From the NCBI RefSeq assembly GCF_003841505.1, contig NZ_REGA01000019.1, positions 1-64,000 of the forward strand: a DNA stretch of 64,000 nucleotides, read 5' to 3'. The translations under genes were made by a program, and so were the position numbers. Below the pieces are notes generated by a model that saw nothing but the letters and a program-made list of their open reading frames with translations, had not been told where the DNA came from and did no database searches. Below, in pieces: positions 2,599-44,740 of the stretch. Position 1 is the first letter of the stretch. Every line of letters begins with the position of its first letter. The stretch comes from Natrarchaeobius chitinivorans (lineage in GTDB: Archaea; Halobacteriota; Halobacteria; Halobacteriales; Natrialbaceae).

Positions 2599-3233
2599 GT
2601 GAACGATCAGTTTCACGCACAAAACAGGAAAAGCGGTGGTACACCATCCTGGCACCCGAACAGTTCGATCGTCAGGAACTCGGTGAGACACCGGCAGATG
2701 AACCGGAGAAGGTCTACGGCCGAACGATCGAGACGACGCTCGGCGAGTTGACCAACAACGCAAGCGAGAACAACACGAAGCTCACTTTCAAGGTGACCGA
2801 CGTCGGCAGCGATTCGGCGTACACGGAGTTCAAAGCGCACTCGCTGACTCGTGACTACCTTCGATCGCTGGTCCGACGCGGCGCGTCGAAGATCGAAGCG
2901 TACGTCACCGTCCTCACGACGGACGACTACCGCGTCCAGATCCAGCCGGTCGCGTTCACGACCAAGAAAGCCGACGCGAGCCAGGAGCGGGCCATCCGCG
3001 AGAACATGGTCGAGATGGTCGAAGAGGCAGCCGCCGAGCGCACGTTCGAGGAACTCATCTCGAGCGTGGTCGAGGGGCGACTCTCCTCGGCGATCTACGG
3101 CGAATCGAAGACGATCTATCCGCTTCGACGCGTCGAGATCCAGAAAGCGACGCTCGAGGCCCACCCCGAAGAGGTCGCCGAAGAGGAAGCGACCTCGGTC
3201 GACGTCGACGAAGAAGACGTCTCGGCCGACTGA
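2595..3233 (+). CDS. rps3ae: 30S ribosomal protein eS1 (S3Ae)
   Basis: The 212-residue protein is a clear eS1/S3Ae homologue. It opens with a basic KQEKRWYTILAPEQFDRQELGET region. The central segment contains SLTRDYLRSLVRRGASKIEAYV and the C-terminal part IYPLRRVEIQKATLEAHPEE, all typical of the family. The tail is strongly acidic (EEEATSVDVDEEDVSAD), as expected for halophiles. It is a structural component of the small subunit platform found in archaea and eukaryotes. It is the last gene of the uS15 cluster and is followed by a tandem array of short hairpins. Confidence 0.97.
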   Translation: MSERSVSRTKQEKRWYTILAPEQFDRQELGETPADEPEKVYGRTIETTLGELTNNASENNTKLTFKVTDVGSDSAYTEFKAHSLTRDYLRSLVRRGASKIEAYVTVLTTDDYRVQIQPVAFTTKKADASQERAIRENMVEMVEEAAAERTFEELISSVVEGRLSSAIYGESKTIYPLRRVEIQKATLEAHPEEVAEEEATSVDVDEEDVSAD

Positions 3234-3300
3234 ACGGGACGAGTTCGGACTGTCACGACGTTTTTCTCACCGACGCCGATTATCCTTTCAACGACAGGTG

Positions 3301-5121: not shown

Positions 5122-5266
5122 CACGGTACCAACGGTCGGTCGTCCTGATATATTACTTTCGCTGAGTATTTCGAACAACAAAGGCTATATTTCCCGACTC
5201 CGATCTCACACCCGTACTCTGCTGAAGTCGGAACGCGAGAGATGTCGGTCACCGGGAGCCGCGTAG

Positions 5267-5641
5267 GTGAAGTACGGAGACAGCATGAAGCCCCAGACAC
5301 GAAATCCTCACGATGGAGAGACGGGTATACCACAGATAACGTCGACGGACCTCTTTGCCGCGTTCTCGGCTCATCGTCGCCAGCGGACGATCGGCTATCT
5401 AACGCAAAAACCAGCAGCGATTCCGGTCGGCGACCTCGCAGAATACATCGCGCTCAAAGAGGGAGAACCATCCTACGATCGGTACGAACGAATTCTGACG
5501 GACCTATATCACAATCACTTACCGCATCTGACGGACGCCGGCATCGTCACGTTCGACGAGGAAACCGAACTCGTGGAACTCGTGGTCGATCGAAGCGTCG
5601 TGACGCCGTACCTTCGGCTCACCGACAACGCGGGTGCGTAG
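5267..5641 (+). CDS. DUF7344-type winged-helix protein
   Basis: The 124-residue protein resembles the haloarchaeal DUF7344 domain. Its DLFAAFSAHRRQRTIGYL opening and GDLAEYIALKEGEP segment precede ILTDLYHNHLPHLTDAGIVTFDEETELVEL, a winged-helix DNA-binding fold. Such proteins are presumed transcriptional regulators of unknown targets. A second ATG six residues in (MKPQTRN) is equally plausible as the start. TATA-like stretches (GATATATTAC near 5147, GGCTATATTT near 5183) lie upstream. A 33-bp tandem repeat begins just after the stop codon. Confidence 0.8.
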   Translation: MKYGDSMKPQTRNPHDGETGIPQITSTDLFAAFSAHRRQRTIGYLTQKPAAIPVGDLAEYIALKEGEPSYDRYERILTDLYHNHLPHLTDAGIVTFDEETELVELVVDRSVVTPYLRLTDNAGA

Positions 5642-5657
5642 CCGAACGATTAGCGAG

Positions 5658-5790
5658 CGGTCGTCGCAGCAGGTAGCATGTAATACCGAACGGTCGTCGC
5701 AGCAGGTAGCATGTAATACCGAACGGTCGTCGCAGCAGGCAGAATCCAACAACGCGCGCACCCCACAGCAGACAGAATCCAATCAGGAGA
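5658..5790. repeat. 33-bp tandem repeat, about three units plus decayed end
   Basis: The unit starts CGGTCGTCGCAGCAGGTAGC and repeats at 5658, 5691 and 5724 with an exact 33-bp period. The first two units are identical. The third turns into CAGGCAGAATCCAA, and a partial echo (CAGCAGACAGAATCCAA) follows near 5765. It fills the space between the DUF7344 gene and the 3' end of pth2. No coding function is evident. Confidence 0.85.
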
Positions 5791-5853
5791 CACACACGGT
5801 TGTCGCTGGTGCGTTTTTCCGAGTTCACTCCCCGGGCGGGGCGACGGTATCGG

Positions 5854-6192
5854 TCAGAACAGCGAGAGGTCTCCGGTAACGCTGTCGACGCGATCGTCGG
5901 CCGCCGGCCCGACCGCCAGCGCGGTGACGGTCCCGGGCTCGAGTTGCGTGTGACCGGCGTCGCGAACGACGGCGTTGGGGATTCCCTCGCTGTCGGCAAT
6001 CGCGGCGAGTTCGTGGAGCTGGCGCTCTCCATTACCTTTGAGAACGACTTTCTTCTGCCCGCCACGTTTCCACTCGTCTCGGAGCTGATCGTCCGCCTTT
6101 TCGTACGCCGACAGCGACGCGTGAGCGACCTGTGCGGCGAGCTTTCCCTGTCCCATGCCGACGTCGGTTCGGGCGACGATGGCCTGTTTCAT
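5854..6192 (-). CDS. pth2: Peptidyl-tRNA hydrolase, Pth2 type
   Basis: The 112-residue protein matches the archaeal/eukaryal Pth2 family. It opens [20 protein letters not shown] followed by QVAHA, where the Lys of GQGK and the downstream His lie in the active-site region. Later come [17 protein letters not shown], and [18 protein letters not shown], also hallmarks. It releases peptides from prematurely dissociated peptidyl-tRNA. The length equals the family norm. The gene stands alone, divergent from dcd. Confidence 0.96.
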
Positions 6193-6314
6193 GCCGAGAC
6201 GAACGGGACGGTGGGGTATAGGTTCGATGATCCACCAGTCCCGACGGCGGCCGAGACGCTTCGGCCCGAGACGTTTCGGGGGTTTTAGGACGGCCCGATT
6301 CCACTGACCGTCTA

Positions 6315-6917
6315 ATGATCCTCTCCGATGCGGACATTCTGGACCGCCTCGAGGCCGGCGACCTCGTTGTCGAGCCGCTCGACGACCTCGAGTTACAGAT
6401 CCAGCCGGCGAGCGTCGACCTCCGCCTGGGCCGGGAGTTTCTCGAGTTCCAGCGGACGAACATCCCCTGTATTCACCCGAATTCGGAACGCGAGGTCGAC
6501 GAGTACGTCACCGAGACGGTCGTCGAAGACGGCGACGACTTCATCTTGCATCCGGGCGATTTCGTCCTCGGAACGACGCACGAACGTGTCGAGATTCCGC
6601 CGGATTTGATCGCCCACGTCGAGGGCCGATCGTCGCTGGGCCGTCTCGCCGTGGTAGTCCACGCCACCGCTGGACTGTGTGATCCGGGGTATCGCGGGCA
6701 GATCACCCTCGAGCTGTCGAATCTCGGAACGGCACCGGTCGCCCTGACGCCCGGCATGCGCATCTCCCAGCTCACGTTTACGGAACTCAAGACGCCCGCC
6801 GACCGACCGTACGGGAGCGACCGCGGATCGAAGTACCAGGACCAGGACGGGCCACAGGCCTCGCGCATCCAGAGCGACGACGAGTTCGGCGGCGACCAGC
6901 TCGAGCGCGAGGAGTGA
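6315..6917 (+). CDS. dcd: dCTP deaminase (Dcd family)
   Basis: The 200-residue enzyme has the dUTPase-like trimeric fold. Signature [20 protein letters not shown] spans residues 101-120 and [17 protein letters not shown] follows, with the likely catalytic Glu at about 133. It converts dCTP to dUTP (or directly to dUMP in bifunctional forms) for thymidylate synthesis. The C-terminal tail is acidic and hydrophilic. The conserved [12 protein letters not shown] start supports the chosen ATG. Confidence 0.95.
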
Positions 6918-30579: not shown

Positions 30580-31278
30580 TTACAGTGGTACCGGGAGCCA
30601 CTCGAGGTGTCGCAAAAACGGCGTCGGATCGAAAATCGGGTCGTGGAGGACGAGCCAGTCGAGCAAGACGAGACCGGCCCCGTGGGCGATCACCGACGGA
30701 AGGATCGAGTTCGATTTGTAGTCGACGGCTCCGAAGAGGACGTCCGTCGGACCCGATAGCAGAAACTCGATCGGCGGCTTCGAGGCGTGGTGGATCATGT
30801 AGACGACGGGGCTGATGAACACCGCGACGAACCCGAGTTCTTTGACGCCGACACAGAGCAGTCCGCGGTAGTAGGTTTCGGTTGCCAACGCGAGGATGAA
30901 CAACTTGATCGCGTGTGGGAGAAACTCCCCCGGTGCCGCCGACGTCTCCCAGATCGGATAGAACTCACGGATCGTCGGGAGCGTCGAGCCGACGAGATAA
31001 AACGGGAGGACGAACATCGAGAGCAAGACGGCGTTCCGGACGGCGACGCGGTTGACGTTCCAGCCGATGTGTCGACCGTGGGTTATCCCCAGTGCGAGCG
31101 GCCCTCCGATCAGGAGGACGGAGTCGAAGACGATCCGCCGGTCGAGTCCGGTTGGAACCGCGGACATCCACACGACCGTTAGAATCGCGCCGACGAGTAG
31201 CGATTTCTGTACCCAGGAGAGTCGATCGAACCCGTCGCGAACGACCCCGAGAACACGATTTCCGTCCTCGGTCGCCAC
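30580..31278 (-). CDS. CPBP-family intramembrane metalloprotease-like
   Basis: The 232-residue protein has about six to seven transmembrane segments. The CPBP glutamate/arginine motif (ATETYYRGLL, about residues 136-145) is followed by HHASKP in a later helix (about 168). CPBP (Abi) proteins include Rce1-type proteases and proteins linked to immunity or bacteriocin resistance. The motif here is EtxxR rather than EExxxR, so catalytic ability is uncertain. The start codon lies 7 bases after the DUF5789 gene, so they are probably co-transcribed. Confidence 0.8.
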   Translation of the reverse strand: MATEDGNRVLGVVRDGFDRLSWVQKSLLVGAILTVVWMSAVPTGLDRRIVFDSVLLIGGPLALGITHGRHIGWNVNRVAVRNAVLLSMFVLPFYLVGSTLPTIREFYPIWETSAAPGEFLPHAIKLFILALATETYYRGLLCVGVKELGFVAVFISPVVYMIHHASKPPIEFLLSGPTDVLFGAVDYKSNSILPSVIAHGAGLVLLDWLVLHDPIFDPTPFLRHLEWLPVPL

Positions 31279-31890: not shown

Positions 31891-33069
31891 CTACCACCAG
31901 CGGTTCTCGAGCAGGCGATCGATCGCCTCGTCGATCGTCGCCTCGTTTCTCGAGAACGTAAACCGGACCCAGTCGGCCTCCGCGTCGGGGTCGGTGTAGA
32001 AGCTGCTTCCCGGAACCGGGGCCACGCCAGCCTCTCGGATCAGCCGATAGGAGAACTCGAGGTCGGTCTCGTCGGTCGGATAGCGTGTCATGACGTAGTA
32101 GGCACCGTCGGGTTCGACGGGCTCGAGCCCGGCGTTTCGAAGTCCGGCACAGAGCTGATCGCGACGCCGCTCGTAGGAATCGGCGAGCGTTTCGTAGTAC
32201 GACTGGGGCAACGAGAGCGCTTCGACGCCCGCGCGCTGGAACGGCGTCGGCGCACAGATACTCGTGTAGTCGTGGACCTTTCGAAGCTCCTGGGAGAGGT
32301 ACTCGGGCGCGAGACAGAAGCCGACCCGCCAGCCGGTGACGCTGAACGTCTTGGACATGCCGGTACAGACCACCGTTCGATGGGCGAGGTCGCCGACTTC
32401 GACCGGGCTGACGTAGTCGTCGGTGTAGACGATGTGCTCGTAAATCTCGTCGGTGAGAACGATCAGGTCGTGTTCGAAGACGATCTCCTCGATTCGCTCG
32501 AGTTCCGCGCGGGTAAACACCTTCCCGGTCGGGTTCATGGGCGTGTTGAGCACGAGGATTCGCGCCTGCTCGGCCGCGTCGGCAAGCGCGTCGTAGTCGG
32601 GTTCGAGCCCGTCGGTCATGTCGATCGGAACGGCGTTCGCACCGGCGAACTGACTCGCCGGGATGTAGCTCTCGTAGACGGGTTCGAAGTAGATGACGTC
32701 GTCTCCGGGACCGGCTAACGCGAGCATCGTCGACATGATCGCTTCGCTGGTTCCGCTGGTGATCGTCACCTCGGTCTCGGGGTCGTACTCGATGCCTTTC
32801 CACTCGGCGTAGCGCTCGGAAACTGCCTCACGGAGCGCCGGAAGTCCCCAGGTGATCGTATACTGGCTATCGGTGTCGATCGCTTCCTTCGCGGCGCGTT
32901 TGATCTCCGGTGGCGTCTCGTCTTCGTCGGGAATCCCCTGCGAGAGGTTGATCGCGCCCCGGTCGAGCGCCTCGCGGGTCATCTCCCGGATGACCGACTC
33001 GGCGACGCCGTCCGTTCGTCCCGTCCCGATCAGACCGTCGGGTAATCCTCCGTTGGGTGGTGCGTTCAC
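31891..33069 (-). CDS. Class I PLP aminotransferase
   Basis: The 392-residue enzyme is a fold-type I aminotransferase. It shows the substrate/cofactor segments ISLSQG-like INLSQGIPD, TPMNPTGKVFT and LTDEIYEHIVY, the PLP lysine in TGMSKTFSVTGWRVG, and the C-terminal VRFTFSRNE arginine region. Relatives are aspartate, alanine or kynurenine aminotransferases. It is the third gene of the unit aminotransferase III - ureohydrolase - aminotransferase I. The ureohydrolase ends six bases before its start, so it is likely co-transcribed and supplies or removes amino groups in that pathway. Confidence 0.9.
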   Translation of the reverse strand: MNAPPNGGLPDGLIGTGRTDGVAESVIREMTREALDRGAINLSQGIPDEDETPPEIKRAAKEAIDTDSQYTITWGLPALREAVSERYAEWKGIEYDPETEVTITSGTSEAIMSTMLALAGPGDDVIYFEPVYESYIPASQFAGANAVPIDMTDGLEPDYDALADAAEQARILVLNTPMNPTGKVFTRAELERIEEIVFEHDLIVLTDEIYEHIVYTDDYVSPVEVGDLAHRTVVCTGMSKTFSVTGWRVGFCLAPEYLSQELRKVHDYTSICAPTPFQRAGVEALSLPQSYYETLADSYERRRDQLCAGLRNAGLEPVEPDGAYYVMTRYPTDETDLEFSYRLIREAGVAPVPGSSFYTDPDAEADWVRFTFSRNEATIDEAIDRLLENRWW

Positions 33070-33075
33070 GATCGA

Positions 33076-34080
33076 TCACTCCGCGAAGGCTCGCTCGAGC
33101 AGCGTTACGAGGAGATACGCTGCGAGCCGCTGTGTTCCATCGGTCGGGTCGTACCGCGGCGCGACCTCCATCAGGTCGGCACCGCCGACGGCCTCGTGGG
33201 AGCCGAGGATCTCCATCGTCTCGAGGGCCTGCTGTGCGGAGAGTCCGCCGGGGATCGGCGTCCCGGTTCCCGGGGCCACGCTCGGGTCGACCGCGTCGAT
33301 GTCGAAACTGACGTAGACCGCGTCAGTATTCGCAGCCGCAGCCTCGATCGCATCGGAGACGACGTCCCCGATGCCGCGTTTCTCGACCTCACGCATCGTG
33401 TACAGATTGAGGCCGGTGTCGTCGGCGAACTCGAAGAAGTCGGGGGATTCGTACCCCCGGATAGCGACCTGGCTGACGTTCTCGTAGTCGACGAACGGCG
33501 AGTCGGCGATCAGGGCCGTACTCGAGCCGTGGAAGTCGGTACCGAAGACGGGGCTCTCGGAGACGGTGTCGGTGTGAGCGTCGATCTGGACGAATCCGAC
33601 GTTGTCGTAGCCGCCCCCCTCCGCGAAGCCGCGGACGGACGGGAACGTACAGTAGTGGTCGCCGCCGAGCAGGACGGGGAACGTCTGTGAGGCGACCGCG
33701 GCGACGTGAGCGGTGATGCTCTCGGCGGTCGTCTCGTGGTCCATCGGAAACACCGGGACGTCGCCGCAGTCGGCGACGGAAAGCTTTCCGAAGTCGACGT
33801 TTTTCCCGGTCTGCATGTTCGTCAGCCCGCTCTTGTAATCGGAGATGTAGGCCCACCAGCCGCTCGCCCGCCTGATCGCCTCCGGTCCGTATCGAGCACC
33901 CGGACGGTTCGAGACGGCCCCGTCGTACGGAACGCCGAGGACCGCCGCCTCGACGTCGTCTACGTCGTCGACCTCCCGTTCGTCGCCCTTGAGAAACCGG
34001 TTGAATCCGGCGTAGGCGAGTTCGACGTCCGCACCCGGAACCGAGTCACGAAACGCCGCTGGCCGATCGCGTTCACGCAT
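33076..34080 (-). CDS. Agmatinase/arginase-family ureohydrolase
   Basis: The 334-residue enzyme has all metal-binding motifs of ureohydrolases: LLGGDHYCTFPSV (His), QIDAHTDTV (DxHxD), and SFDIDAVDPSVAPGTGTPIP (DxD). The Mn-dependent reaction splits a guanidino group to urea. Candidate substrates are agmatine, guanidinobutyrate, arginine or guanidine itself; the sequence does not decide. The start overlaps the class III aminotransferase stop by eight bases, indicating coupling. A polyamine-type ABC importer and C-N hydrolase lie nearby, so a guanidino/polyamine degradation role is inferred. Confidence 0.92.
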   Translation of the reverse strand: MRERDRPAAFRDSVPGADVELAYAGFNRFLKGDEREVDDVDDVEAAVLGVPYDGAVSNRPGARYGPEAIRRASGWWAYISDYKSGLTNMQTGKNVDFGKLSVADCGDVPVFPMDHETTAESITAHVAAVASQTFPVLLGGDHYCTFPSVRGFAEGGGYDNVGFVQIDAHTDTVSESPVFGTDFHGSSTALIADSPFVDYENVSQVAIRGYESPDFFEFADDTGLNLYTMREVEKRGIGDVVSDAIEAAAANTDAVYVSFDIDAVDPSVAPGTGTPIPGGLSAQQALETMEILGSHEAVGGADLMEVAPRYDPTDGTQRLAAYLLVTLLERAFAE

Positions 34081-35395
34081 CCGTCTCGACCTCCGTCTCG
34101 AGGGCCTCGTGGAGGGTATCGACGGCGCGTTCGAGCTGTTCGCGGCCGATCGTCAGCGGCGGCTGGAACCGAAGGACGTTCCCGTAGTAGCCGCCGACGC
34201 CGATGACGATTCCGTCCTCGCGGAGACGCTTCGAGACGGCCTTTGCGAGATCGGCGTCCGGCGCGTCGGCGACGCCGAGCGGTCCCGTCTCGTCGGGATC
34301 GACGAGTTCGATTCCCTGCATCAGTCCGAGGCCTCGAGTCTCGCCGACCACGTCGAACGACTCGAGTTGCGTCAGCCGACCCGAAAGCCACTCGCCCTGT
34401 TCGCGTGCGTTGTCGACGATTCCGCCCTCCAGTTCGTCGATCGTCGCGAGCGCGGCGGCGCAGGCGACGGGGTTGCCGCCGAACGTCGAGAGGTGGTCGC
34501 CGGAGTCGAAGCTGTCGGCGATCTCGCTCGGCGCGGTGAACGCGCCCAGTGGCAGGCCGTTCGCGATCCCTTTCGCCTGTGTCATCACGTCCGGTTCGAC
34601 GTCGAAGTGCTCGACGGCGAACAGTTCGCCGGTCCGGCCGTACCCCGACTGAACTTCGTCGGCGATCAGCAGGCCGCCGCGCTCGTGGGTAATCTCTCGA
34701 ACCCGCTCGAGCCACCCCTCGGGCGGAACGATGATCCCCCCTTCGCCCATCACGGGTTCGACCACGACCGCGGCCAGATCGTTCGAGGTGTGCGTATCGA
34801 TGACGTGCTCGAGGCGGTCGGCGCAGTCGGCGGTGCAGTTCCCGTCACAGGACGGACACCGATAGGAGTACGGTGCCGGCGCGTGGGCGACGTCGTTTAT
34901 GGTCGGCGCCATGCCATCCTTGTAGGATTTGTTCCCGGTCAGGGCGAGGCTGCCGAGCGTTCGCCCGTGAAACGCCATCTCCAGGGCGACGACCTCGGTG
35001 TTGCCAGTGTGTTTCCGCGCGAGCTTGATCGCGCCCTCGACGGCCTCGGTTCCGGAGTTACAGAGGAAACTCTTCTCGAGATCACCGGGCGTGATTTCGG
35101 CGATTCGTTCGGCGAGTTCGGCGACGGGCGCGTTGGGGTGGACGTACGAACAGCCGTGGACGAACTCTTCGAGCTGGTCGCTCGCGGCCTCGAGGACTGC
35201 CGGATTGTTGTGGCCAACATTCGCCACCGATATCCCCGAAAAAAGGTCGAGATACGTATTCCCCTCGAAGTCCTCGAGCGTACAGTCCTCCGCACGTTTG
35301 ACTGGAACGTCGAGATCCTTCCAGATCGACATCACGTACTCGTCGTACCGCGACTCCACGTCCCGATTGTCCCTGAACGTTTTATTGAAAGCCAT
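34073..35395 (-). CDS. Class III aminotransferase
   Basis: The 440-residue PLP enzyme resembles 4-aminobutyrate, ornithine and alanine-glyoxylate aminotransferases. It shows FLCNSGTEAVEGAIKLAR, FHGRTLGSLALTG, LLIADEVQSGYGRTG, and the PLP lysine in QAKGIANGLPLGA. An unusual Cys-rich insertion (YRCPSCDGNCTADCADRLEH, about residues 176-195) could bind zinc or iron. It heads the unit with the ureohydrolase and class I aminotransferase. An NrpR-like half-conserved operator lies at its promoter. Its start is ATG at 35395; GTG two codons upstream is possible. Confidence 0.92.
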   Translation of the reverse strand: MAFNKTFRDNRDVESRYDEYVMSIWKDLDVPVKRAEDCTLEDFEGNTYLDLFSGISVANVGHNNPAVLEAASDQLEEFVHGCSYVHPNAPVAELAERIAEITPGDLEKSFLCNSGTEAVEGAIKLARKHTGNTEVVALEMAFHGRTLGSLALTGNKSYKDGMAPTINDVAHAPAPYSYRCPSCDGNCTADCADRLEHVIDTHTSNDLAAVVVEPVMGEGGIIVPPEGWLERVREITHERGGLLIADEVQSGYGRTGELFAVEHFDVEPDVMTQAKGIANGLPLGAFTAPSEIADSFDSGDHLSTFGGNPVACAAALATIDELEGGIVDNAREQGEWLSGRLTQLESFDVVGETRGLGLMQGIELVDPDETGPLGVADAPDADLAKAVSKRLREDGIVIGVGGYYGNVLRFQPPLTIGREQLERAVDTLHEALETEVETDA

Positions 35396-35408: not shown

Positions 35409-35422
35409 GGAAATTTGTTGCC
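35409..35422 (-). promoter_or_regulatory. Near-match NrpR-type operator at aminotransferase III promoter
   Basis: GGAAATTTGTTGCC has GGAA-N6-TGCC, one base from the methanogen NrpR consensus GGAA-N6-TTCC. It lies about 14 bp before the aminotransferase start, next to a minus-strand TATA-like ACCTTTTATTTCC (near 35447). That position would let a bound repressor block transcription start. Confidence 0.5.
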
Positions 35423-35573
35423 ACCCTATCCGACGGTCTACAGGAAATAAAAGGTTACCCCACGAAACGGACTCTCCGTCGAGAACGCTCGGTCGACCCG
35501 CGGCGAAACCGTCTTTTTGTGTCCGCGCTCGAACGCAAACGTTAGTGTCGCCGGTATCCAATTATTCGATCGA

Positions 35574-36605
35574 ATGCCCCCGGATCTCGATCGTCGGACG
35601 TACGACATCCTCAGGCTCGTCGACCGCCACGGCCCGATCGGCAGCATTCAGCTCGTCGAACTGATGCAGGTCCACGGCTACGACATCAAGGGCCGAACGA
35701 TCAGACTGACGCTGTCGGAACTCGACGATCTCGGGCTGACGACGAAGGTCCCCGGCCGCGGCCGTCGTCTCACCGAGCAGGGCCGGCGGGAACTCGAGCA
35801 GGGGAACGTAAGCGGCCGCCTCGAGCAGATTCGCGCTCGAATCGCACAGCTCACCAGCCGGGTGACGTACGATCCGTCCGAAGACGCGGGGGTTCTCATC
35901 GCCTGCGCGGCCTTCCTCGAGGAGGAGGACGTCGACGAAGCTCTCTCGTTGCTCTCCCGCCTCGAGTCGCGCTCGTTCGGTCCAGTCCCGGCTTCCTTCG
36001 GCGAGAGCGCCGACGACGAACCCGGCGATTACCGACTGCTCGTTCCCTCGAGTATCTCCCTCGACGGCGTCTTGCTCGCTCACGGAATCAACGCCACCCT
36101 GACCAACGCGGCGGTTCTCGAGTACGAACCGCCAGCAGCGTCGAGCACCGACGACGACTCTCCCGCAGGTGGGCGAATCGTCCGTCACGTCGACGTGATA
36201 AACGGACAGGGATCGTCGATCGACGTCATCACGCTCCTGATCGAGGCCGGCCGAAGCGACGTCTCGAGCGTCCTCGAATCCTCGGAGACGGGACTCATCC
36301 TTGGCGACGATCGGGAGTTTCCGATCAACCGCTTCGAGGAGGCACGCGACCTCGCTGAGTCGACGCGGGACGCACTCGGCGGCGTCGTCGGCTTCAAGCG
36401 GCCGCGCGAACGGACGCAGTTCCAGAACCGAAACTCGGGGTGGTCGTTCGGATCGATCACGTACGCCGGAACGGGCGAACTCCTGTTGACTGCGCTGTAC
36501 GAGTACGACCTCTCTACCTCCTGGGAGACGCTGTACGGGATGGTCTCGAGGCGCAAACTCGAACCCGTCGAGGCGATCGCTCGAGCGCCGAACGCGGACG
36601 ACTGA
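35574..36605 (+). CDS. NrpR-type nitrogen regulator, paralogue 1
   Basis: The 343-residue protein starts MPPDLDRRTYDILRLVDRHG followed by PIGSIQLVELMQVHGY, a winged helix (about residues 5-75). A single NrpR (DUF128) ligand domain comes next, with LVPSSISLDGVLLAHGINAT, VDVITLLIEAGRSDVSSVLE, and EFPINRFEEARDLAESTRDA. NrpR of methanogens represses nitrogen genes and is released by 2-oxoglutarate. The start at 35574 avoids an unlikely upstream extension. It diverges from the aminotransferase III unit across 178 bp. The gene at 41670-42686 is a paralogue. Confidence 0.85.
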   Translation: MPPDLDRRTYDILRLVDRHGPIGSIQLVELMQVHGYDIKGRTIRLTLSELDDLGLTTKVPGRGRRLTEQGRRELEQGNVSGRLEQIRARIAQLTSRVTYDPSEDAGVLIACAAFLEEEDVDEALSLLSRLESRSFGPVPASFGESADDEPGDYRLLVPSSISLDGVLLAHGINATLTNAAVLEYEPPAASSTDDDSPAGGRIVRHVDVINGQGSSIDVITLLIEAGRSDVSSVLESSETGLILGDDREFPINRFEEARDLAESTRDALGGVVGFKRPRERTQFQNRNSGWSFGSITYAGTGELLLTALYEYDLSTSWETLYGMVSRRKLEPVEAIARAPNADD

Positions 36606-36612
36606 TCCGGCG

Positions 36613-37443
36613 TTATCGCTCGTAGACGTCGGGCCGGCGATCGCCCAGCGCGTCGTCCCGCGGGGTCAGCGACTTGTTCCGGGCTCGTGAGAGATCGCAG
36701 TCGGCCTCGAGGACGCACTCGCCCTCGATCGGTGCCGGCCCCGCGAGGGGGAGGCCGTTCGGATCGACGACGACGCTCTGTCCCTCGAACGGGACGTCCC
36801 GCTCGGTCCCCGCACGATCCGCACAGGCGATGAACACCCGGTTTGCGTTCGCGTGTGCCACCGCGTGGTGGACGCCGATCGTCCACCCGCCGGGGCGACT
36901 CCCGTCCGCCACGGTCGGATTGGGGACCCAGTTCGTGGGGACGGCGATCAGGTCCGCGCCGTCTCGGGCCTGGGCGACCGTCGCCTCGGGAAACCACTGG
37001 TCGTTGCAGATCTGGACGCCGAGTCGCCCGAACGGCGTCTCGAAGATGGGGAGTCGTTCGCCGGCTTCGAACCAGTACTCCTCTTCGTTCCAGCGGTGGA
37101 CCTTTCGATAGACGCCCTCGAGCCCGTCCGGCGAGACGACGAACGCGCTGTTGTAGTAGCCGTCGTCGGCCCGCTCGGGGACGCCGCCGACGATCCACGT
37201 CCCAGTCTCTTCGGCGACCGTCGACCACGCTCGAGCGGTGTCGCCGTCCCGCGATTCGGCCATCGACTCGACCTCGTCGGTCGATTCGAACACGTATCCC
37301 GACGTCGCGAGTTCGGGGAGGACGACCAGGTCGGCGTTGGCGTGATCCCGAACGATTTCGACGGTTCGCTCCCGGTTTCGCTCGACGGCACCGAACTCGG
37401 GAACCGTCTGGGCGACGACGACTCGGGCCTCGCCGGCCGTCAT
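36613..37443 (-). CDS. Carbon-nitrogen hydrolase (nitrilase superfamily)
   Basis: The 276-residue enzyme has the nitrilase-superfamily triad: Glu44 (VVLPELATSGYVF), Lys114 (EGVYRKVHRWNEEEYWF) and Cys146 (LGVQICNDQWFPE). The length and motifs fit amidases such as N-carbamoylputrescine amidase, omega-amidase or related. Its start overlaps the fused permease stop by four bases, so it is the last gene of the potD-potA-potBC unit. Location suggests it acts on the imported compound. The exact substrate cannot be told. Confidence 0.9.
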   Translation of the reverse strand: MTAGEARVVVAQTVPEFGAVERNRERTVEIVRDHANADLVVLPELATSGYVFESTDEVESMAESRDGDTARAWSTVAEETGTWIVGGVPERADDGYYNSAFVVSPDGLEGVYRKVHRWNEEEYWFEAGERLPIFETPFGRLGVQICNDQWFPEATVAQARDGADLIAVPTNWVPNPTVADGSRPGGWTIGVHHAVAHANANRVFIACADRAGTERDVPFEGQSVVVDPNGLPLAGPAPIEGECVLEADCDLSRARNKSLTPRDDALGDRRPDVYER

Positions 37444-39314
37444 TCCCAGATCCCTCCGGACAGGCGATCGATCGCGGTCATCACGACGACCGTGAGCCCG
37501 ATGAAGACTACGCTCGCGGCCGCGATGGTCGGCGGGTAGGAGTAGCGAAGCTGGTTGAAGATCTGGATCGGGATCGTCTCGACGAGAAACAGCGACAACA
37601 GCCACGCGATGATGTACTCGTTGAGCGAGAGGATGAACGCGAACAGCGCGCCGGAGATCACGTTCGCCCGGAGAAGCGGGTACGTGATCGTCCGAATCGT
37701 CCGCACCGGCGACGCACCGAGGTTCATCGCCGCCTCCTCGTACGTCCGGTCGATCTCGCGAAGCCCCTGTGAGACCAGAATAAACGGGAACGGCGCGTAG
37801 AAGATGCCGTGGGCGACGATGATCGCCGTCCGCGAACCGGCGAGGCCCACCTCGAGGAAGAACACGAGAAACGCGACGCCGATGATCACCGGCGGAACCA
37901 GGATCGGAAGGACGCCGAGCGTTCCGTAGATCGTCTCCCAGCGGTAATCGAACCGGTCGAGCGCGAACGCGAGTCCGCCGCCGATCGTCGTGCTGAGAAT
38001 CGCCGCAGCCAGTGCGATCCCGAGACTGTTCGCGAGCGCCACCATCCAGCTTGCGTCAGTGAAGAACGCGACGTACCACCGGAACGAGAAGCCGCCGGGC
38101 GGGAACGTGAGGAACTCCTCGGGAGTGAACGAGACGGCGACGATGATCGCGAGCGGCACGGCGATGAACGCCATCGCCGCGGTGACGTACGCCCGGAACG
38201 TCACCCAGATGATCGATTCGCGCGTCGTCGAATCGACCGTCGTCACGACCGAGTCGACGGCCGCTCCGATCCCGCTGACTGCTCGCGTAAGCCCGACGCT
38301 CGAGGCTGCATCGGCGACAGTCGACCGAACGCGGGTTCCGACGCCGGAACTCGAGGAGCCGACCGAACCGGCGACGTCGGGTCCGCCGTCGGTGGCGATT
38401 TCGTCGCTCCCGCTCAGGCTCCCGGTCGTCACGTTCGTCACCCGGATCATCACCCAGAGGAACGCGAGCACGACGACGATGAGCCCGATACTCATGGCCG
38501 CGCCGAACGGGTAGTTGCTCTCGCTCATGATCTGCTGTTCGATCAGGACCGGCAGGGTCCGCTCGGCTGAACTCCCGAGGAGACGCGGCAGAACGTACGA
38601 GCCAAGCGCCAGGATGAACACGAGCGCGGTTCCGCTCGCGATGCCGTTTTTCGACAGCGGGTACGTCACCTTGCGGAACGTCCGGGCCGGTCCCGCGCCG
38701 AGGTTCTTCGAGGCCTCGAGCAACTCGTCGTCTATGTTCCGGATGCTGCTGTACAGCGTGAGGATCATAAACGGCAGGAAGACGTACACCATGCCGACGA
38801 CGAGCCCCCAGTAGCCCGGATAGAACGAACGCGGTTCGGCGAGGATGCCGACGGCGACGCCGAAGGAACTCAGGATGCCGCCGGAGGCGAGGATGACCTG
38901 CCAGGCGTACGCCCGGATGACGTAGGTCACCCACAGCGAGGAGATGATCGTGAGCAACAACAGACTGCGCAGCCACGGCCGGTCCATCCGCGCGAGGTAG
39001 TACGCGATGGGATAGCCGAGCAGGAGCGAGAGGATTGCGGTGACCAGCGACAGTTCGATCGTCAGCCACAGCTGGCCGAGATAGAGGGTGCTCGTGAGAA
39101 ACCGGACGTAGTTTTCGAGCGTGAACCCCAGTTCGTACTGGCCGCCGGGGATGTTGATCCAGAAACTGAACACGACCAGCATGGCAAGCGGGACGAGAAA
39201 GATCGCGGTGAGCCAGAACAGCGGGTACGACAGCACGAACCACTTCGTGTTGGCCTTCAGACCCGCTCGTCCGGACTCGTCCGCGCCGTCGTCCGAAACG
39301 CTCTCCGTCGCCAT
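37440..39314 (-). CDS. Fused PotB-PotC type ABC permease
   Basis: One 624-residue protein contains two complete ABC permease domains. The first spans about residues 25-315 with EAA loop EASKNLGAGPARTFRKVTYP; the second spans about 375-620 with EAAMNLGASPVRTIRTITYP. A Ser/Asp-rich linker and a helical stretch (about 315-375) join them. Normally PotB and PotC are separate proteins. A total of about 12-13 transmembrane helices is visible. Neighbours are the ATPase (39315-40424) and binding protein. It should import spermidine/putrescine-like cations or related compounds. Confidence 0.9.
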   Translation of the reverse strand: MATESVSDDGADESGRAGLKANTKWFVLSYPLFWLTAIFLVPLAMLVVFSFWINIPGGQYELGFTLENYVRFLTSTLYLGQLWLTIELSLVTAILSLLLGYPIAYYLARMDRPWLRSLLLLTIISSLWVTYVIRAYAWQVILASGGILSSFGVAVGILAEPRSFYPGYWGLVVGMVYVFLPFMILTLYSSIRNIDDELLEASKNLGAGPARTFRKVTYPLSKNGIASGTALVFILALGSYVLPRLLGSSAERTLPVLIEQQIMSESNYPFGAAMSIGLIVVVLAFLWVMIRVTNVTTGSLSGSDEIATDGGPDVAGSVGSSSSGVGTRVRSTVADAASSVGLTRAVSGIGAAVDSVVTTVDSTTRESIIWVTFRAYVTAAMAFIAVPLAIIVAVSFTPEEFLTFPPGGFSFRWYVAFFTDASWMVALANSLGIALAAAILSTTIGGGLAFALDRFDYRWETIYGTLGVLPILVPPVIIGVAFLVFFLEVGLAGSRTAIIVAHGIFYAPFPFILVSQGLREIDRTYEEAAMNLGASPVRTIRTITYPLLRANVISGALFAFILSLNEYIIAWLLSLFLVETIPIQIFNQLRYSYPPTIAAASVVFIGLTVVVMTAIDRLSGGIWE

Positions 39315-40424
39315 CTACGCCTCCACGAGCCGGCAGTCCTCGGGGTCGATCGTGACCGTCGTCCGATCGCCGGGCGCGTGTTCGTCGAGTCCGCTCCGGC
39401 GGACGACGACGAGTTCCCTGCCCCCGTCCGTCTCGAGGCGGAACTCGACGCTGCTGCCGAGGTGTCGTTTGAACGTGATCGTTCCGTCGAAGGCGTTGAT
39501 CGAGTCGGAGAGAGTCGCCGTCTCGGAGGTGGCCGCCCCGCCGTCGGTACTCGCTCCCTCGAACCGGAAGCGCTCCGGCCGGGCGACGACCGAGACGTCC
39601 GTTCTCGGATCGATTCCGGCGGGGTTCGTCGACCGGATCGTGACGTCGTCGCAGTCGACGGTCGCGTACCCGTCTTCGGCCGACGCTATCACACCGTCGA
39701 AGATGTTCGCGGTTCCGAGGAAGTCCGCGACGAACCGCGAGTCGGGGTCGTCGTACACCTCCTCTGGCGGACCGATCTGTTCGAATCGGCCGTCGTTCAT
39801 CACCGCGAGTCGGTCCGACATCGTCAGCGCCTCTTCCTGGTTGTGCGTAACGAAGACAGTCGTGATGCCGATCTCCTCCTGGATGCGGCGCAACTCGACT
39901 TGCATCTGTTCGCGCAGCTTCTTGTCGAGGCTCGCGAGCGGTTCGTCGAGTAACAGCGCCTTCGGTTTCGGAGCGAGCGCTCGAGCCAGCGCGATCCGCT
40001 GTTGTTGGCCGCCGGATAACTGATCCGGCGTCCGGTCGGCGACGCCGGGGAGTTCGACCAGTTCGAGCATCTCCGCGACCCGAGCGTCGATCTCTTCGTC
40101 GGTGTACTCCCCTGATGCTTCCATGCCGTAGGCGACGTTCTCGCGGATGGTCATGTGCGGAAACAGCGCGAAGTCCTGAAACACCATCCCGGTGTCGCGC
40201 TCGTAGGGAGGGGCGTCTGTGACGTCGTTGTCGCCGATCGCGACCTCCCCGTCGGTCGGGGTCTCGAAGCCGGCGATCATCCGCAACGTCGTCGTCTTTC
40301 CACAGCCTGATGGGCCGACGAGCGTGACGAATTCGCCGCTTTCGATGTCGATATCGACGCCGTCGACGGCGAGGACGCCGCCAGGGTACCGCTTGGTCAC
40401 GCCCTCGAGAGAGATGTTACTCAT
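39315..40424 (-). CDS. potA: ABC importer ATP-binding protein, PotA-like
   Basis: The 369-residue ATPase opens MSNISLEGVTKRYPGGVLAV. It has Walker A GPSGCGKTT, signature LSGGQQQRIALARALAPKPK, Walker B LLLDEPLASLD, and H-loop VFVTHNQEEAL. A C-terminal TOBE domain (about 260-369, VVARPERFRFEGAS) identifies the PotA/CUT1 type. It abuts the fused permease and follows the binding-protein gene by six bases. Substrate class is inferred from its partners. Confidence 0.93.
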   Translation of the reverse strand: MSNISLEGVTKRYPGGVLAVDGVDIDIESGEFVTLVGPSGCGKTTTLRMIAGFETPTDGEVAIGDNDVTDAPPYERDTGMVFQDFALFPHMTIRENVAYGMEASGEYTDEEIDARVAEMLELVELPGVADRTPDQLSGGQQQRIALARALAPKPKALLLDEPLASLDKKLREQMQVELRRIQEEIGITTVFVTHNQEEALTMSDRLAVMNDGRFEQIGPPEEVYDDPDSRFVADFLGTANIFDGVIASAEDGYATVDCDDVTIRSTNPAGIDPRTDVSVVARPERFRFEGASTDGGAATSETATLSDSINAFDGTITFKRHLGSSVEFRLETDGGRELVVVRRSGLDEHAPGDRTTVTIDPEDCRLVEA

Positions 40425-40430
40425 CCTGAG

Positions 40431-41528
40431 TTAACCGATGATGAACTCCTCCCACCGTTCGCTTACCCAGTCTTCCTCCTCGACGTAGAGTTCGTACTTC
40501 GGTGATATCGCCGCGTCCGGCCCCGGACCGGCGATCCGCTCGTACGTCTCGTCGTCGAGTTCGGAGTACTGCTCTTCGACCGTCGGACTCGTATAGAGGT
40601 TTTCGGCGAGGCGATCCTGAACTTCGGGCTGGCTCGCGTAATCGATGAACTGGCGTGCTTCCTCTTTGACCTCGGAGGTCTCGAGTGTCACCCACAGCCC
40701 GGAGTCGAGGATCGATCCCTCTTCGACGAAGTTCGACTGGACCGGCGCGCCGTCGTCCTGCATGACGAGCGTGATGTCACTGTAGAGCATTCCTGCCGGA
40801 ACTTCGCCGTCGCGAAGGCGTTGCTGGAACTCCGCCTCGTTTTCGTACCAGAAGTTGGCCTGCGGTCTGACGTCTTCGAGTACCTCGAACACCTCGAGGA
40901 CGCCGTCGCGGTCGTCGAGGATGTCCTGCCCGCCGAAGTGAAGCTCCGCGGTGACCTCGAGCAGGAAGGAGTTCGACGCGTATCCGAGCAAGCCGAGGGT
41001 ATCCTCGTACTGGTCGTCCCAGAGCGCTTCCCAGGTGTCGACCGGCTCCTCGATGACGTCCGTGTTCTGGACGAGGTTGATGTACCACGACAGCGCCCCG
41101 ACGCTCGAGATTCCGCCGTCGGCCTCGCCCACCAGGTCGTCGCTGATGTACTGGACGTTGTCGAAGTCGCCGTCGTCCCAGATGTGCCACAGCTCCGAGT
41201 TCAGTCCCTGCCTGACGCCGGTCTCCGCCATGATCGCGACGTCGACCGGTGCCTCTCCCGCCCCGACGGCGTTTTCGTACTGGGTCAGTGCCTCCTCGGA
41301 GGTCGGCTGTGCTTCCGACTCCACCTCGAAGTCGACGTCCTCCTCGAACGGTGCGAACAGTTCCTCGTCCATCACGTCCTGAAACACGCCGCCGTAGACG
41401 GCGACCGTCAGCGTATCGTCGTCGAGGAATCCCGTACACCCTGCGAGCCCGGCGAGCGAGACAGCGCTCCCGCCGATCGCCGCACGCTCGAGAAACTTCC
41501 GTCGTCCGTGTTGAGTAGGTCCCGGCAT
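40431..41528 (-). CDS. PotD-like ABC substrate-binding Tat lipoprotein
   Basis: The 365-residue protein has a Tat lipoprotein signal (GRRKFLERAAIGGSAVSLAG then LAGC, lipobox Cys at 31). Mature segments TLTVAVYGGVFQDVMDEELF and the later WYINLVQNTDVIEEPVDTWE fit the PotD/PotF fold that binds spermidine or putrescine. It is the first gene of the importer unit (binding protein, ATPase, fused permease, C-N hydrolase). A strong TATA box lies about 35-45 bp upstream. The ligand might also be a guanidino compound. Confidence 0.92.
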   Translation of the reverse strand: MPGPTQHGRRKFLERAAIGGSAVSLAGLAGCTGFLDDDTLTVAVYGGVFQDVMDEELFAPFEEDVDFEVESEAQPTSEEALTQYENAVGAGEAPVDVAIMAETGVRQGLNSELWHIWDDGDFDNVQYISDDLVGEADGGISSVGALSWYINLVQNTDVIEEPVDTWEALWDDQYEDTLGLLGYASNSFLLEVTAELHFGGQDILDDRDGVLEVFEVLEDVRPQANFWYENEAEFQQRLRDGEVPAGMLYSDITLVMQDDGAPVQSNFVEEGSILDSGLWVTLETSEVKEEARQFIDYASQPEVQDRLAENLYTSPTVEEQYSELDDETYERIAGPGPDAAISPKYELYVEEEDWVSERWEEFIIG

Positions 41529-41559
41529 ACTATTGCCACCGTATCACACTATCTACGTT

Positions 41560-41669: not shown

Positions 41670-42686
41670 CTACTTCTGGATCGTGACAGTCGAAAAACGA
41701 GACCGGGGCTGGACTCGCGCCAGGGTCGTCCACTCGAGGGCCACTCCGGCTTCGACGCAGGCCGAGATGACGCATTCCGATCCGCCCGCGTAGGTGAGCG
41801 ACGCGAACGCCCATCCCGGATCGCCCCACGGGAACGGTCCCGACTCTCGTGGCCGACGAAGGTCGAGGACGCCTCCCAGCCGGTTACGCGTCTCGACTGC
41901 GAGTTCGCGAGCCGTATCGTGGTGAGCGAGCGGAAACTCCCTGTTGTCGGCGACCAGCAATCCGGTTTCGCCGTCCACGGCGCTGTCGACGTCCGTTTGG
42001 CGCGCCTCGATCAACAGCGAGACGAGATCGAGCGTCGCCCGCTCGTCACCGATCACGTCGGTAAACCGACGGATCGCGCCGCCGTGTCTCGCCGGCTCGG
42101 GATCGTCGTACGGAACGTGCTCCGGATCGGAGTGGTACTCGACGACGCCGATCGTATCGGGATAGCTCTCGATCCCGTTTGCGAGAAACACGCCGTCGAT
42201 CGTCACGCTCGAGGGGACGGCGACCTCGAGACAGTCGGTGCCGTTCAGTTCGACGGGTTCGATTCCCGCGACGACCGGACCGAGCGGTGAGTCGGCGATC
42301 CGCTCGAGTACCGTCTCGAGTTCCGCGCGTTTCGACCGGGGGACGGTGACGGTCCCCGCCACGACGTCGCCGGTATCGGTTGTGGGATCGTAGCTCACCC
42401 GACTCGTCAGGTCGGCCAGACGCTCTCTGACCTGTTCGACGCGGCCCTGGACGCCGCCGCGCTCGAGTTCCGCGCGGCCGTCTGCCGTGAGCCGCCGCCC
42501 TTTGCCGCCGACTTTTTCGGTGAGGCCGTCGTCGTCGAGATCCGCGAGTGTGAGCCGGACCGACCGCTCCGTGATCGAGTATCCCCGCTCCTGGAGGAAA
42601 TCGGTGAGACGGACGCTTCCAATCGGCTCGTGTTCGGCAAGCAATCGGAGTACGTCGTAGGTCCGCCGGTCGGGATCGGTCGCCAT
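41670..42686 (-). CDS. NrpR-type nitrogen regulator, paralogue 2
   Basis: The 338-residue protein mirrors paralogue 1: winged helix TYDVLRLLAEHEPIGSVRLT (about 9-28) continuing to GGKGRRLTADGRAELERG, then an NrpR/DUF128 domain with VAVPSSVTIDGVFLANGIES, ATLDLVSLLIEARQTDVDSA and EFPLAHHDTARELAVETRNR. It likely senses 2-oxoglutarate and represses nitrogen genes at GGAA-N6-TTCC sites. It lies between the importer unit and the GSA-aminomutase-like gene. Its start is seven bases after the stop of that gene, so the two may be co-transcribed and autoregulated. Confidence 0.85.
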   Translation of the reverse strand: MATDPDRRTYDVLRLLAEHEPIGSVRLTDFLQERGYSITERSVRLTLADLDDDGLTEKVGGKGRRLTADGRAELERGGVQGRVEQVRERLADLTSRVSYDPTTDTGDVVAGTVTVPRSKRAELETVLERIADSPLGPVVAGIEPVELNGTDCLEVAVPSSVTIDGVFLANGIESYPDTIGVVEYHSDPEHVPYDDPEPARHGGAIRRFTDVIGDERATLDLVSLLIEARQTDVDSAVDGETGLLVADNREFPLAHHDTARELAVETRNRLGGVLDLRRPRESGPFPWGDPGWAFASLTYAGGSECVISACVEAGVALEWTTLARVQPRSRFSTVTIQK

Positions 42687-42693
42687 TGTTCGA

Positions 42694-44091
42694 TTACTGC
42701 TGGGCCATGAATAAATGTGTGGCGAGATCCGCGAAGGCCTCGACGTGTGCGTCGATTTCCTCCGCCGTGTGCTGGACGCTTATCGTCCACTGCTGGGAGG
42801 CGTCGTGGGGGTGGGGAACGACGTCTCTGTTCACCATCCCGATCCAGTATGCTTCGTGGAACTCCTCGTCGACGTGTTGCCAGTCGCGGAAGGTCCGGAT
42901 CGGTTCGTCCGTAAAGTGTACCGCTCCCTGCGAGCCGGCGGTTTTCACCTGCGCCTCGAGACCCGCGTCCTCGATGACGTCGCGATATCCCGCGGCGAGT
43001 CGTTCGTTGAGGTCGCTGACGTGGTCGTAGGCATCCTCCGTGAGAATCTCCCGGAGGGTTACGCCGACGGCGCACAGGACCAGCGGGTTCCCGTTGTACG
43101 TCCCGTAGTGGGCCGCGCCGGTCGCGACGCCATCGTCGAGGTCGGCCGCGATCCGTTCCATGATCTCCCGGCGACCGCCGAACGCGCCGACGGGGTAGCC
43201 GCCGCCGATGGCCTTCGCGAGCGCGACGATGTCCGGCTCTACGCCGTAGTACTCCGCGCCGCCGCCCGGCGCGAGTTTGACCCCCGTCTTCACTTCGTCG
43301 AACAGTAACACGACGTTGTACTCGTCGGCCAGTTCGCGCAGTCGCTCGAGGAAGCCGTCTTCCGGTTCGGCGAGCCCGAGGTTGAGACAGGCCGGCTCGA
43401 CGAGAATCGCGGCGACCTCCGGCCCGTGTTCGCGAAGCAAGGCCTCGACGCTTTCGGCGTCGTTGTACTGTGCCAGCAACACGTCCTCGGGAACCGACTC
43501 CGGGACGCCCTGGGATTCTCTGACCCGGCGGGGATCGTCCGCCGGTCCCGCCTGCTCGAGCGGCGGCATCTTGCTCACGAGTGCCGGATCGTGTGCGCCG
43601 TGATAGGCACCTTCCATCCGGATTACCTTCTCCCGACCGGTGTACGCCCGCGCCAGGCGGGTTGCGTGCATCACCGCTTCCGTCCCGCTGTTGGTAAAGC
43701 GAACCTGCTCGATCGCGTCCCAGCGATCGATCAACGGCTGGGCTGCGAACTCGAGGCGGTCCGACGGTCGGGTGTACAGCGTTCCACGATCGATCTGCTC
43801 GACGACGGCGTCGTCGAGTTCCGGATGAGTGTGGCCAACGAGTTGCGTTCCGTTGTTCAACGCGAAGTCGAGCAGTTCGTTCCCGTCGACGTCGTAGATC
43901 GTCGTTCCCGCGGCGCGGTCCGCGTGTATGGGGTACGGTTCGTACGCCCGAAACGTACTGCAGACGCCCGCCGGGACGACCTCTCGGAGTTCCTCGGCCA
44001 TCTCCGCCGAGTTCGGGGTCCGATCCCTGTATCGTTCGTATTCTCGCGCGAGCAGTTCGTCCGTCGAGGGGCTCGAGTTCGGTTCCGTCAT
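42694..44091 (-). CDS. GSA-aminomutase-like class III aminotransferase
   Basis: The 465-residue enzyme resembles glutamate-1-semialdehyde 2,1-aminomutase and related class III aminotransferases. It has VRFTNSGTEAVMHATRLARA, MEGAYHGAHDPAL, LLFDEVKTGVKLAPGG, and PLP lysine in ALAKAIGGGYPVGAFGG. A separate true hemL probably exists elsewhere, so this copy may act on a different amino ketone or diamine. ATG 44091 is chosen because an exact NrpR-type operator lies at 44102-44115 just upstream, and the upstream in-frame sequence runs through it. It is followed by NrpR paralogue 2. Confidence 0.9.
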   Translation of the reverse strand: MTEPNSSPSTDELLAREYERYRDRTPNSAEMAEELREVVPAGVCSTFRAYEPYPIHADRAAGTTIYDVDGNELLDFALNNGTQLVGHTHPELDDAVVEQIDRGTLYTRPSDRLEFAAQPLIDRWDAIEQVRFTNSGTEAVMHATRLARAYTGREKVIRMEGAYHGAHDPALVSKMPPLEQAGPADDPRRVRESQGVPESVPEDVLLAQYNDAESVEALLREHGPEVAAILVEPACLNLGLAEPEDGFLERLRELADEYNVVLLFDEVKTGVKLAPGGGAEYYGVEPDIVALAKAIGGGYPVGAFGGRREIMERIAADLDDGVATGAAHYGTYNGNPLVLCAVGVTLREILTEDAYDHVSDLNERLAAGYRDVIEDAGLEAQVKTAGSQGAVHFTDEPIRTFRDWQHVDEEFHEAYWIGMVNRDVVPHPHDASQQWTISVQHTAEEIDAHVEAFADLATHLFMAQQ

Positions 44092-44101
44092 CACACAACC
44101 C

Positions 44102-44115
44102 GGAAATCTATTTCC
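44102..44115. promoter_or_regulatory. Exact NrpR-type operator, site 1
   Basis: GGAAATCTATTTCC matches GGAA-N6-TTCC and sits in a longer perfect dyad CCGGAAA-TCTA-TTTCCGG (44100-44117). It lies 11 bp upstream of the GSA-aminomutase-like start. A TATA-like element on the minus strand (near 44150) would place the transcript start on this site. Confidence 0.7.
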
Positions 44116-44169
44116 GGTTAATGGGAGGGTCGGCGCGGGCCGACTTATATCTATCGGCGATCGAGGAGA

Positions 44170-44420
44170 CGTCACCCCGGATCGGTCACACGGTAGTACG
44201 TGCGACGGCCTCCCGCTTCCCACTACCGCAGGTCCGGTGGCCGTCCAAGGTGAGGACCCTCCTCTGGCGGCCCCTGTCCGCTAGTGGCGTCCCAAGCCTG
44301 CACTGGTGGGCGAAATCACACGGTGTGGTCCGATTTCGCTCAGCAGTCGACGCTTGGGAGGGTACTAGGTACGGCCGAGAACTCCGGGACGACACTCCAG
44401 CCCATCGGCCCGAGTACAGT
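44170..44420 (+). ncRNA. Candidate structured RNA (speculative)
   Basis: A plus-strand TATA-like element at 44144-44152 would start a transcript near 44170. The next 250 bases form several stems: CGGTAGT/ACTACCG (44191-44228), GAGGA/TCCTC (about 44253-44265), and a large nested hairpin 44281-44368. That hairpin pairs CTAGT/ACTAG, TCCCAAGC/GCTTGGGA, CTGC/GCAG and GCGAAATC/GATTTCGC. It matches neither SRP nor RNase P RNA conserved motifs. An unrelated palindromic DNA element is the main alternative. Confidence 0.35.
44281..44368. repeat. Large nested inverted repeat
   Basis: CTAGT, TCCCAAGC, CTGC and GCGAAATC pair in order with GATTTCGC, GCAG, GCTTGGGA and ACTAG around an ACACGGTGTGGTCC loop. 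The two arms (about 40 bases each) are related along most of their length, as expected for an imperfect inverted duplication. Confidence 0.85.
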
Positions 44421-44421
44421 T

Positions 44422-44450
44422 TCATACGGTTTGCTGTCGCGATGTGCTGG
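44422..44450. repeat. Half copy of TGATACGG-family element
   Basis: TCATACGGTTTGCTGTCGCG followed by ATGTGCTGG matches one terminus of the family. No clear partner end follows within 100 bp. Confidence 0.6.
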
Positions 44451-44604
44451 TGGATCCTCTGGGTCTCGGTCCCCGGAAATGCCGGCAACGAGTTACACAC
44501 CCATCGGTAGACGGTTTGGCGATCAGGGGTGCGATGACGTGCAGTGGCTACGAAATCGTCCGACCGACGGGATCGGAGAACCGTCGGTCGCACCCCACGA
44601 AACC

Positions 44605-44618
44605 GGAAATTAGTTTCC
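44605..44618. promoter_or_regulatory. Exact NrpR-type operator, site 2
   Basis: GGAAATTAGTTTCC matches GGAA-N6-TTCC within the dyad CGGAAA-TTAG-TTTCCG. It lies 503 bp from site 1 and 123 bp before the next plus-strand gene. It could control that gene or act with site 1 on the intervening region. Confidence 0.65.
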
Positions 44619-44740
44619 GTATTTGTCGGCGCTCCCGCCGTCGACGTCCCGCCGCGTCGGTCACGGGCCCACCAGTTCCTCTCTGTGCGTTGACCTGTGT
44701 CTGACGTAGCGTTTTGTGCAGGGAGGCTCAATGTCCCCGC

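Follow-up and report, generated by a model that had tools for sequence, protein, structure and literature searches.

Genes and proteins of the NrpR locus

The window analysed here, a single stretch of 64,000 nucleotides, carries two groups of genes that each include a member of the NrpR family. The first is a minus-strand operon that begins with a class-III aminotransferase resembling GSAM and GntE (positions 42694 to 44091; assigned from Pfam and NCBIfam profiles and from PDB relatives) and continues through NrpR2 (41670 to 42686), a PotD-like solute-binding protein (40431 to 41528), a PotA-like ABC ATPase (39315 to 40424) and a fused PotB-PotC-like permease (37440 to 39314), the transporter components being assigned from profile matches. 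The second consists of NrpR1 on the plus strand (35574 to 36605) and, divergent from it on the minus strand, a GABA-transaminase-like class-III aminotransferase, AT3 (34073 to 35395), an arginase/agmatinase-family ureohydrolase (33076 to 34080) and a class-I/II aminotransferase, AT1 (31891 to 33069). Profile matches define both of these aminotransferases, and the best PDB match of the ureohydrolase is the 7ESR/7OI1 chain ('Probable agmatinase 2'). In nearly all haloarchaeal loci examined, the ureohydrolase gene adjoins NrpR. Judged by sequence, the enzymes fit guanidino/polyamine import, urea removal and transamination, and may constitute a candidate pathway. A CPBP-family protease (30580 to 31278), whose similarity to the archaeomyxosortase MrtA is weak (a score of only 70 bits where the cut-off is 200), is syntenic beside the cluster in several relatives.

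The genome has two PF01995 genes, both of them in this window, in agreement with the pair of NrpR-like genes recognised by a first-pass annotation. Each encodes a winged helix (HTH_12, PF08461) followed by a single NRD domain (PF01995), with NRD scores of 67.3 and 75.3 bits against a curated cut-off of 25 and with HTH_12 scores that are also above cut-off. An AlphaFold model of NrpR2 (pLDDT 83) shows a DNA-binding domain of three helices and two short wing strands, and the only strong PDB match of the model, through the NRD fold, is 3NEK, the NrpR-like effector domain MJ0159 of M. jannaschii (Foldseek E 1.9e-13, TM 0.77 by target). NrpR1 and NrpR2 form separate clades in a phylogenetic tree, each with 100/100 support, and the haloarchaeal NrpRs are monophyletic with respect to methanogen-lineage sequences in the same tree. 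PF01995-type NrpRs are found in 44 of 391 sampled haloarchaeal genomes, about a tenth. NrpR1 is apparently broken in two genomes (G231 and G362; L050 ~5221 to 6339 and L106 12832 to 13426), where NrpR2 and its operator are intact.

Dyads at the NrpR2 operon promoter

A pattern scan of the window returns three exact GGAA-N6-TTCC matches, at 43350, 44102 and 44605. The first-pass annotation reported the latter two and stated that there was no further exact match in the window, which fails, as GGAAGCCGTCTTCC at 43350 to 43363 also fits the pattern. This additional match lies within the GSAM-like gene and encodes Glu-Asp-Gly-Phe; it is rejected as an operator on the grounds of coding constraint, the peptide being kept in relatives and the dyad not always. 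Three bare matches in a window of this size are unremarkable (shuffle mean 0.98; three or more in 8 of 100 shuffles), one-mismatch versions stand at chance level (24 versus 24.4 expected), and the whole genome holds 67 exact matches against ~70 expected, an expectation derived from the window shuffle figure.

Longer dyads are a different matter, and the earlier claim that both intergenic matches sit within them is borne out. GGAAATCTATTTCC at 44102 forms part of CCGGAAAT-CT-ATTTCCGG, which has perfect arms of 8 bp, and GGAAATTAGTTTCC at 44605 forms part of CGGAAA-N4-TTTCCG, which has perfect arms of 6 bp. Across the 4.57 Mb of the genome the latter pattern is matched exactly at just two places, 503 bp apart in this window, where ~0.17 per genome would be expected, so that their presence is not chance. 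Eight other sites in the genome match it with one mismatch; most of them fall inside reading frames or on their borders, and nitrogen genes are recognisable at none of these eight. Cross-genome conservation of the dyads is far stronger evidence than motif density.

The dyad at 44102 lies within the predicted primary operator of the GSAM-like-NrpR2-PotDABC operon, which reads CCGGAAATAGATTTCCGG on the minus strand (44100 to 44117) and has a TATA-like box ~30 bp upstream of it (44144 to 44151, minus strand). Exact GGAA-N6-TTCC is found near the GSAM start in 18 of 18 genomes having both NrpR2 and the GSAM-like gene, in syntenic regions from eight genera; the comparison covers genomes with both NrpR paralogues plus others, and these are related genomes, seven of them from one genus. 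When one sequence per genus is aligned, the information content is 2.0 bits in the columns of the GGAA/TTCC core and 1.5-2.0 bits in its CC/GG flanks, while the spacer and most surrounding columns are low in information. Across genomes the TATA-like box begins 24-37 bp upstream of the dyad, which should therefore cover the transcription start region. In 14 of the 17 NrpR2 genomes that were searched, the extended form CCGGAA-N6-TTCCGG is found about once, at the GSAM promoter, and the remaining 3 have a variant outer flank at that dyad. Other matches to the extended form, including all those in genomes without NrpR2, are scattered and have mostly G+C-rich spacers.

The second, distal dyad, CGGAAATTAGTTTCCG (44604 to 44619), has counterparts in some genomes only. 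It lies 106-171 bp from the primary dyad in Natrialba swarupiae (L044), L052 (with one mismatch), L053, L055 and L057. Beyond it, N. swarupiae and L053 have a divergent gene of the histone deacetylase (HDAC) family (PF00850); none was found beside the distal dyads of L052, L055 and L057, and the gene is absent at this locus of the present genome. That the distal dyad is simply the operator of the HDAC-family gene is supported only in part, given the three dyads that have no such gene. The 44605 dyad may be either an auxiliary operator or what is left of the operator of a divergent HDAC-family gene that has been lost. As an auxiliary operator it would resemble the paired nif operators of Methanococcus maripaludis, two in number according to the title of a 2005 paper by Lie et al. 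that PMC8143581 cites. A divergent histone-deacetylase-family gene adjoins the GSAM operon in several relatives (L044 at ~2168 to 3274, L049, L050, L051 and L053); it possibly encodes an acetylpolyamine amidohydrolase, and it is lost in this genome.

Inserted repeats account for at least part of the 503-bp spacing between the two dyads. An 88-bp dispersed, imperfect palindromic repeat (44281 to 44368), a very stable long hairpin, takes most of the 57 own-genome matches of an intergenic query and is repeated in Natrialba genomes as well. A 67-bp dispersed repeat (44485 to 44551) has dozens of copies of the same extent in Natrialbaceae genomes, at 76-85% identity, with more than 35 in one of them (G032) alone. 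A known RNA between the dyads is rejected, as there is no Rfam match at the gathering or a relaxed threshold and the two dispersed repeats lie there.

GGCA-type dyads and the third half-site base

At the AT3 promoter, the first-pass annotation had described a one-mismatch GGAA-N6-TTCC dyad, GGAAATTTGTTGCC on the plus strand at 35409. The sequence is present, but its reading as a mismatched GGAA-N6-TTCC is rejected by comparison with sister genomes, which have GGCA-N6-TGCC at this place. The site (GGCAACAAATTTCC on the minus strand, 35409 to 35422) is better read as a half-decayed copy of a GGCA-N6-TGCC dyad and is a predicted operator in the gap between the AT3-ureohydrolase-AT1 operon and NrpR1; the N. 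swarupiae site, GGCAATTTGTTGCC, is one base different. Exact GGCA-N6-TGCC is found in 19 of 20 gaps between NrpR1 and AT3 or the ureohydrolase, the exception being this genome, and a TATA box is located 29-31 bp upstream of the dyad, towards the ureohydrolase operon. Some 30-40 bp upstream of NrpR1 starts there is also a conserved element resembling AAACCnAAACCTTGGTGTG (window ~35520 to 35570; L045, L052, L055-L057), which fits neither the TATA box nor the GGxA dyad pattern and is possibly the site of another regulator.

A third predicted operator, missed by the first-pass annotation, overlaps the PotD start codon (GGCAATAGTATGCC, 41524 to 41537, minus strand). In 22 of 22 genomes, four of which have NrpR1 and no NrpR2, GGTGGCA-N6-TGCC is placed at exactly -9 from the PotD ATG, and a TATA box precedes it by 34-36 bp. 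As a caveat, part of this dyad overlaps a Shine-Dalgarno-like GGTGG and the start codon, an overlap that, together with the chance density of the bare 14-mers and the coding match at 43350, favours reading the dyads as chance palindromes or as coincidences of coding and translation signals. Such coincidence is extremely improbable, however: the flanks of the PotD dyad match those of the AT3-promoter sites, which carry GGTGGCA...TGCC with no start codon overlapping them, and the dyads show position-exact conservation across genera despite variable spacers and flanks.

Four genomes (L061, L103, L107 and L112) have NrpR1 and PotDABC with neither NrpR2 nor the GSAM-like gene nearby, and these show the GGCA form only. 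The persistence of the C form in NrpR1-only genomes, and the confinement of the extended A form to the NrpR2-operon promoter while genomes lacking NrpR2 give scattered other matches, argue against assigning the dyads to another, unlinked regulator of the same cluster. Co-location by itself cannot name the binder, as one would reason in favour of an unlinked protein, though none of the results here points to one; the framework of the dyads is nevertheless that of the operators which characterised methanogen NrpRs use (PMC2723118), and an unlinked regulator is very unlikely.

Loci with a single NrpR are informative about the third base of the half-site. All 26 of 26 have GGHA-N6-TDCC in the upstream gap, beside the ureohydrolase gene, against a background of 16 in 152 tiles of 420 bp. 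The third base in these dyads is A, C or T, and is sometimes unlike in the two halves or represented by two types in one gap. GG-x-A-N6-T-x-CC is found at NrpR2, NrpR1 and single-NrpR loci alike, with position 3 varying by paralogue. The mixed third base of the single-NrpR genomes suggests that the ancestral operator was tolerant and was divided between the paralogues once the gene had duplicated. The same mixture makes a strict third-base code less likely.

The same tolerance bears on whether both paralogues read both forms, by cross-regulation or as heterodimers, with the third base tuning affinity rather than identity. Single-copy NrpRs appear to tolerate any of A, C and T as the third base, the GG-x-A-N6-T-x-CC framework is common to both forms, and the two operons would make up one pathway. 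Against this stand the strict partition in two-paralogue lineages (A in 18 of 18 GSAM promoters, C in 22 of 22 PotD sites and in 19 of 20 NrpR1 gaps), the occurrence of just the C form at the Pot and ureohydrolase promoters of NrpR1-only genomes, and recognition helices that differ by clade, beginning T-E-R-T-V-R in NrpR2 (helix 40-52 in the model) and K-D/G-R-T-I-R in NrpR1. Promiscuous reading by both paralogues is a real but rather unlikely alternative.

A predicted local regulon and its relation to known systems

In the model drawn from the first-pass annotation, the methanogen form GGAA-N6-TTCC would serve haloarchaeal NrpR as a code for nitrogen assimilation in general, with glnA, amt and glnK as targets. 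The regulator family is homologous and the core is identical to operators of M. maripaludis and M. formicicum (PMC2723118, PMC4335013); in M. maripaludis this core precedes nif, glnK-amtB, glnA and other genes (PMC2723118). The genome scan that was suggested as a check nonetheless places the motif at random density (67 versus ~70, as above) and not at nitrogen genes. In this genome neither of the two glnA genes, nor amt/glnK, has an exact site upstream, and the match near one glnA sits beyond its 3' end. Both NrpR genes are moreover confined to this cluster, and NrpR-linked sites lie at ureohydrolase and Pot promoters in the loci examined. A nitrogen-assimilation code is thus hardly likely, and the scan and the inspection of the glnA and amt regions lead us to reject a general nitrogen regulon. 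Regulation of glnA, amt, glnK and nif, a trait of characterised NrpRs, does not emerge here from the operator search. The missing glnA, amt and glnK sites lower the nitrogen-regulon claim and not the homology claim, because this regulation is a physiological property of characterised members and not of the protein family. Of the suggested conservation of the operator code between methanogens and haloarchaea, what stands is the common GG-x-A-N6-T-x-CC framework; the nitrogen-assimilation code does not.

Very probably, the dyads act as operators for the NrpR-family proteins encoded beside them. The joint reading that we favour, and consider probable, is that they serve two haloarchaeal NrpR repressors controlling their own neighbourhood of guanidino/polyamine uptake and catabolism rather than general nitrogen assimilation. 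It rests on the position, conservation and geometry of the dyads, on their co-occurrence with the paralogues and on the NrpR fold. Binding, repression, the pairing of paralogue with site, the effector and the substrate are what we infer from it. Each operator would lie over the start-site region, roughly 30 bp after a TATA box, where a bound NrpR dimer would block loading of RNA polymerase until an inducer frees the promoter. NrpR2 likely autoregulates, reading CCGGAA-N6-TTCCGG in the promoter that drives its operon; some genomes have a second copy upstream. NrpR1 likely reads GGTGGCA-N6-TGCC at the AT3-ureohydrolase promoter and at an inner promoter before PotD. Release could be by 2-oxoglutarate, the inducer in methanogens, or by a substrate or other compound of the pathway.

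More tentatively, and with a little less than even confidence, we propose that the operator code diverged after duplication, the half-sites coming to differ in their third base (CCGGAA-N6-TTCCGG for NrpR2, GGTGGCA-N6-TGCC for NrpR1), that the beginning of the recognition helix changed to match, and that the family was rewired from a global 2-oxoglutarate-responsive nitrogen repressor to a local sensor of guanidino/polyamine metabolites. The presence of NrpR in haloarchaea gives a predicted regulon in archaea that can be cultivated and a regulatory way into haloarchaeal guanidino/polyamine catabolism. It would also be an example from nature of a repressor and its operator evolving together after a duplication, each half fixed in many genera.

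The NrpR-linked ureohydrolase is a full-length member of the family that includes the 7ESR/7OI1 enzyme, guanidinobutyrase, guanidinopropionase and agmatinase. It falls below the NCBIfam agmatinase cut-off (169.8 versus 174.3 bits), and sequence similarity singles out no one activity among these candidates. Agmatine is the main polyamine in haloarchaea (PMC5178350).

Methanogen NrpRs, such as those of M. maripaludis, M. jannaschii (MJ0159, PDB 3NEK) and Methanosarcina mazei (NrpRI and NrpRII), have PF01995 and HTH_12 in common with the haloarchaeal proteins, along with GG-x-A-N6-T-x-CC at the transcription start region and sometimes two operators per promoter. The haloarchaeal proteins are very divergent, however, scoring ~35-100 bits for PF01995 where many other members of the phylum score 290-340. 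Their predicted targets are a local guanidino/polyamine cluster and not nif, glnA or glnK-amtB (PMC2723118), and two paralogues with different operator forms are found on the haloarchaeal side. A similar arrangement is proposed for an N-source cluster of Haloferax volcanii with pot and gab genes, in which a locally encoded regulator would act on Pot-transporter and aminotransferase genes (PMC6801745). That regulator is of the Lrp/FFRP type, a family other than NrpR, and is associated with an AT-rich motif (PMC6801745). The same work states that the master regulator NrpR is not conserved in haloarchaea (PMC6801745); in contrast, about one tenth of the sampled haloarchaeal genomes have an NrpR with a readable operator.
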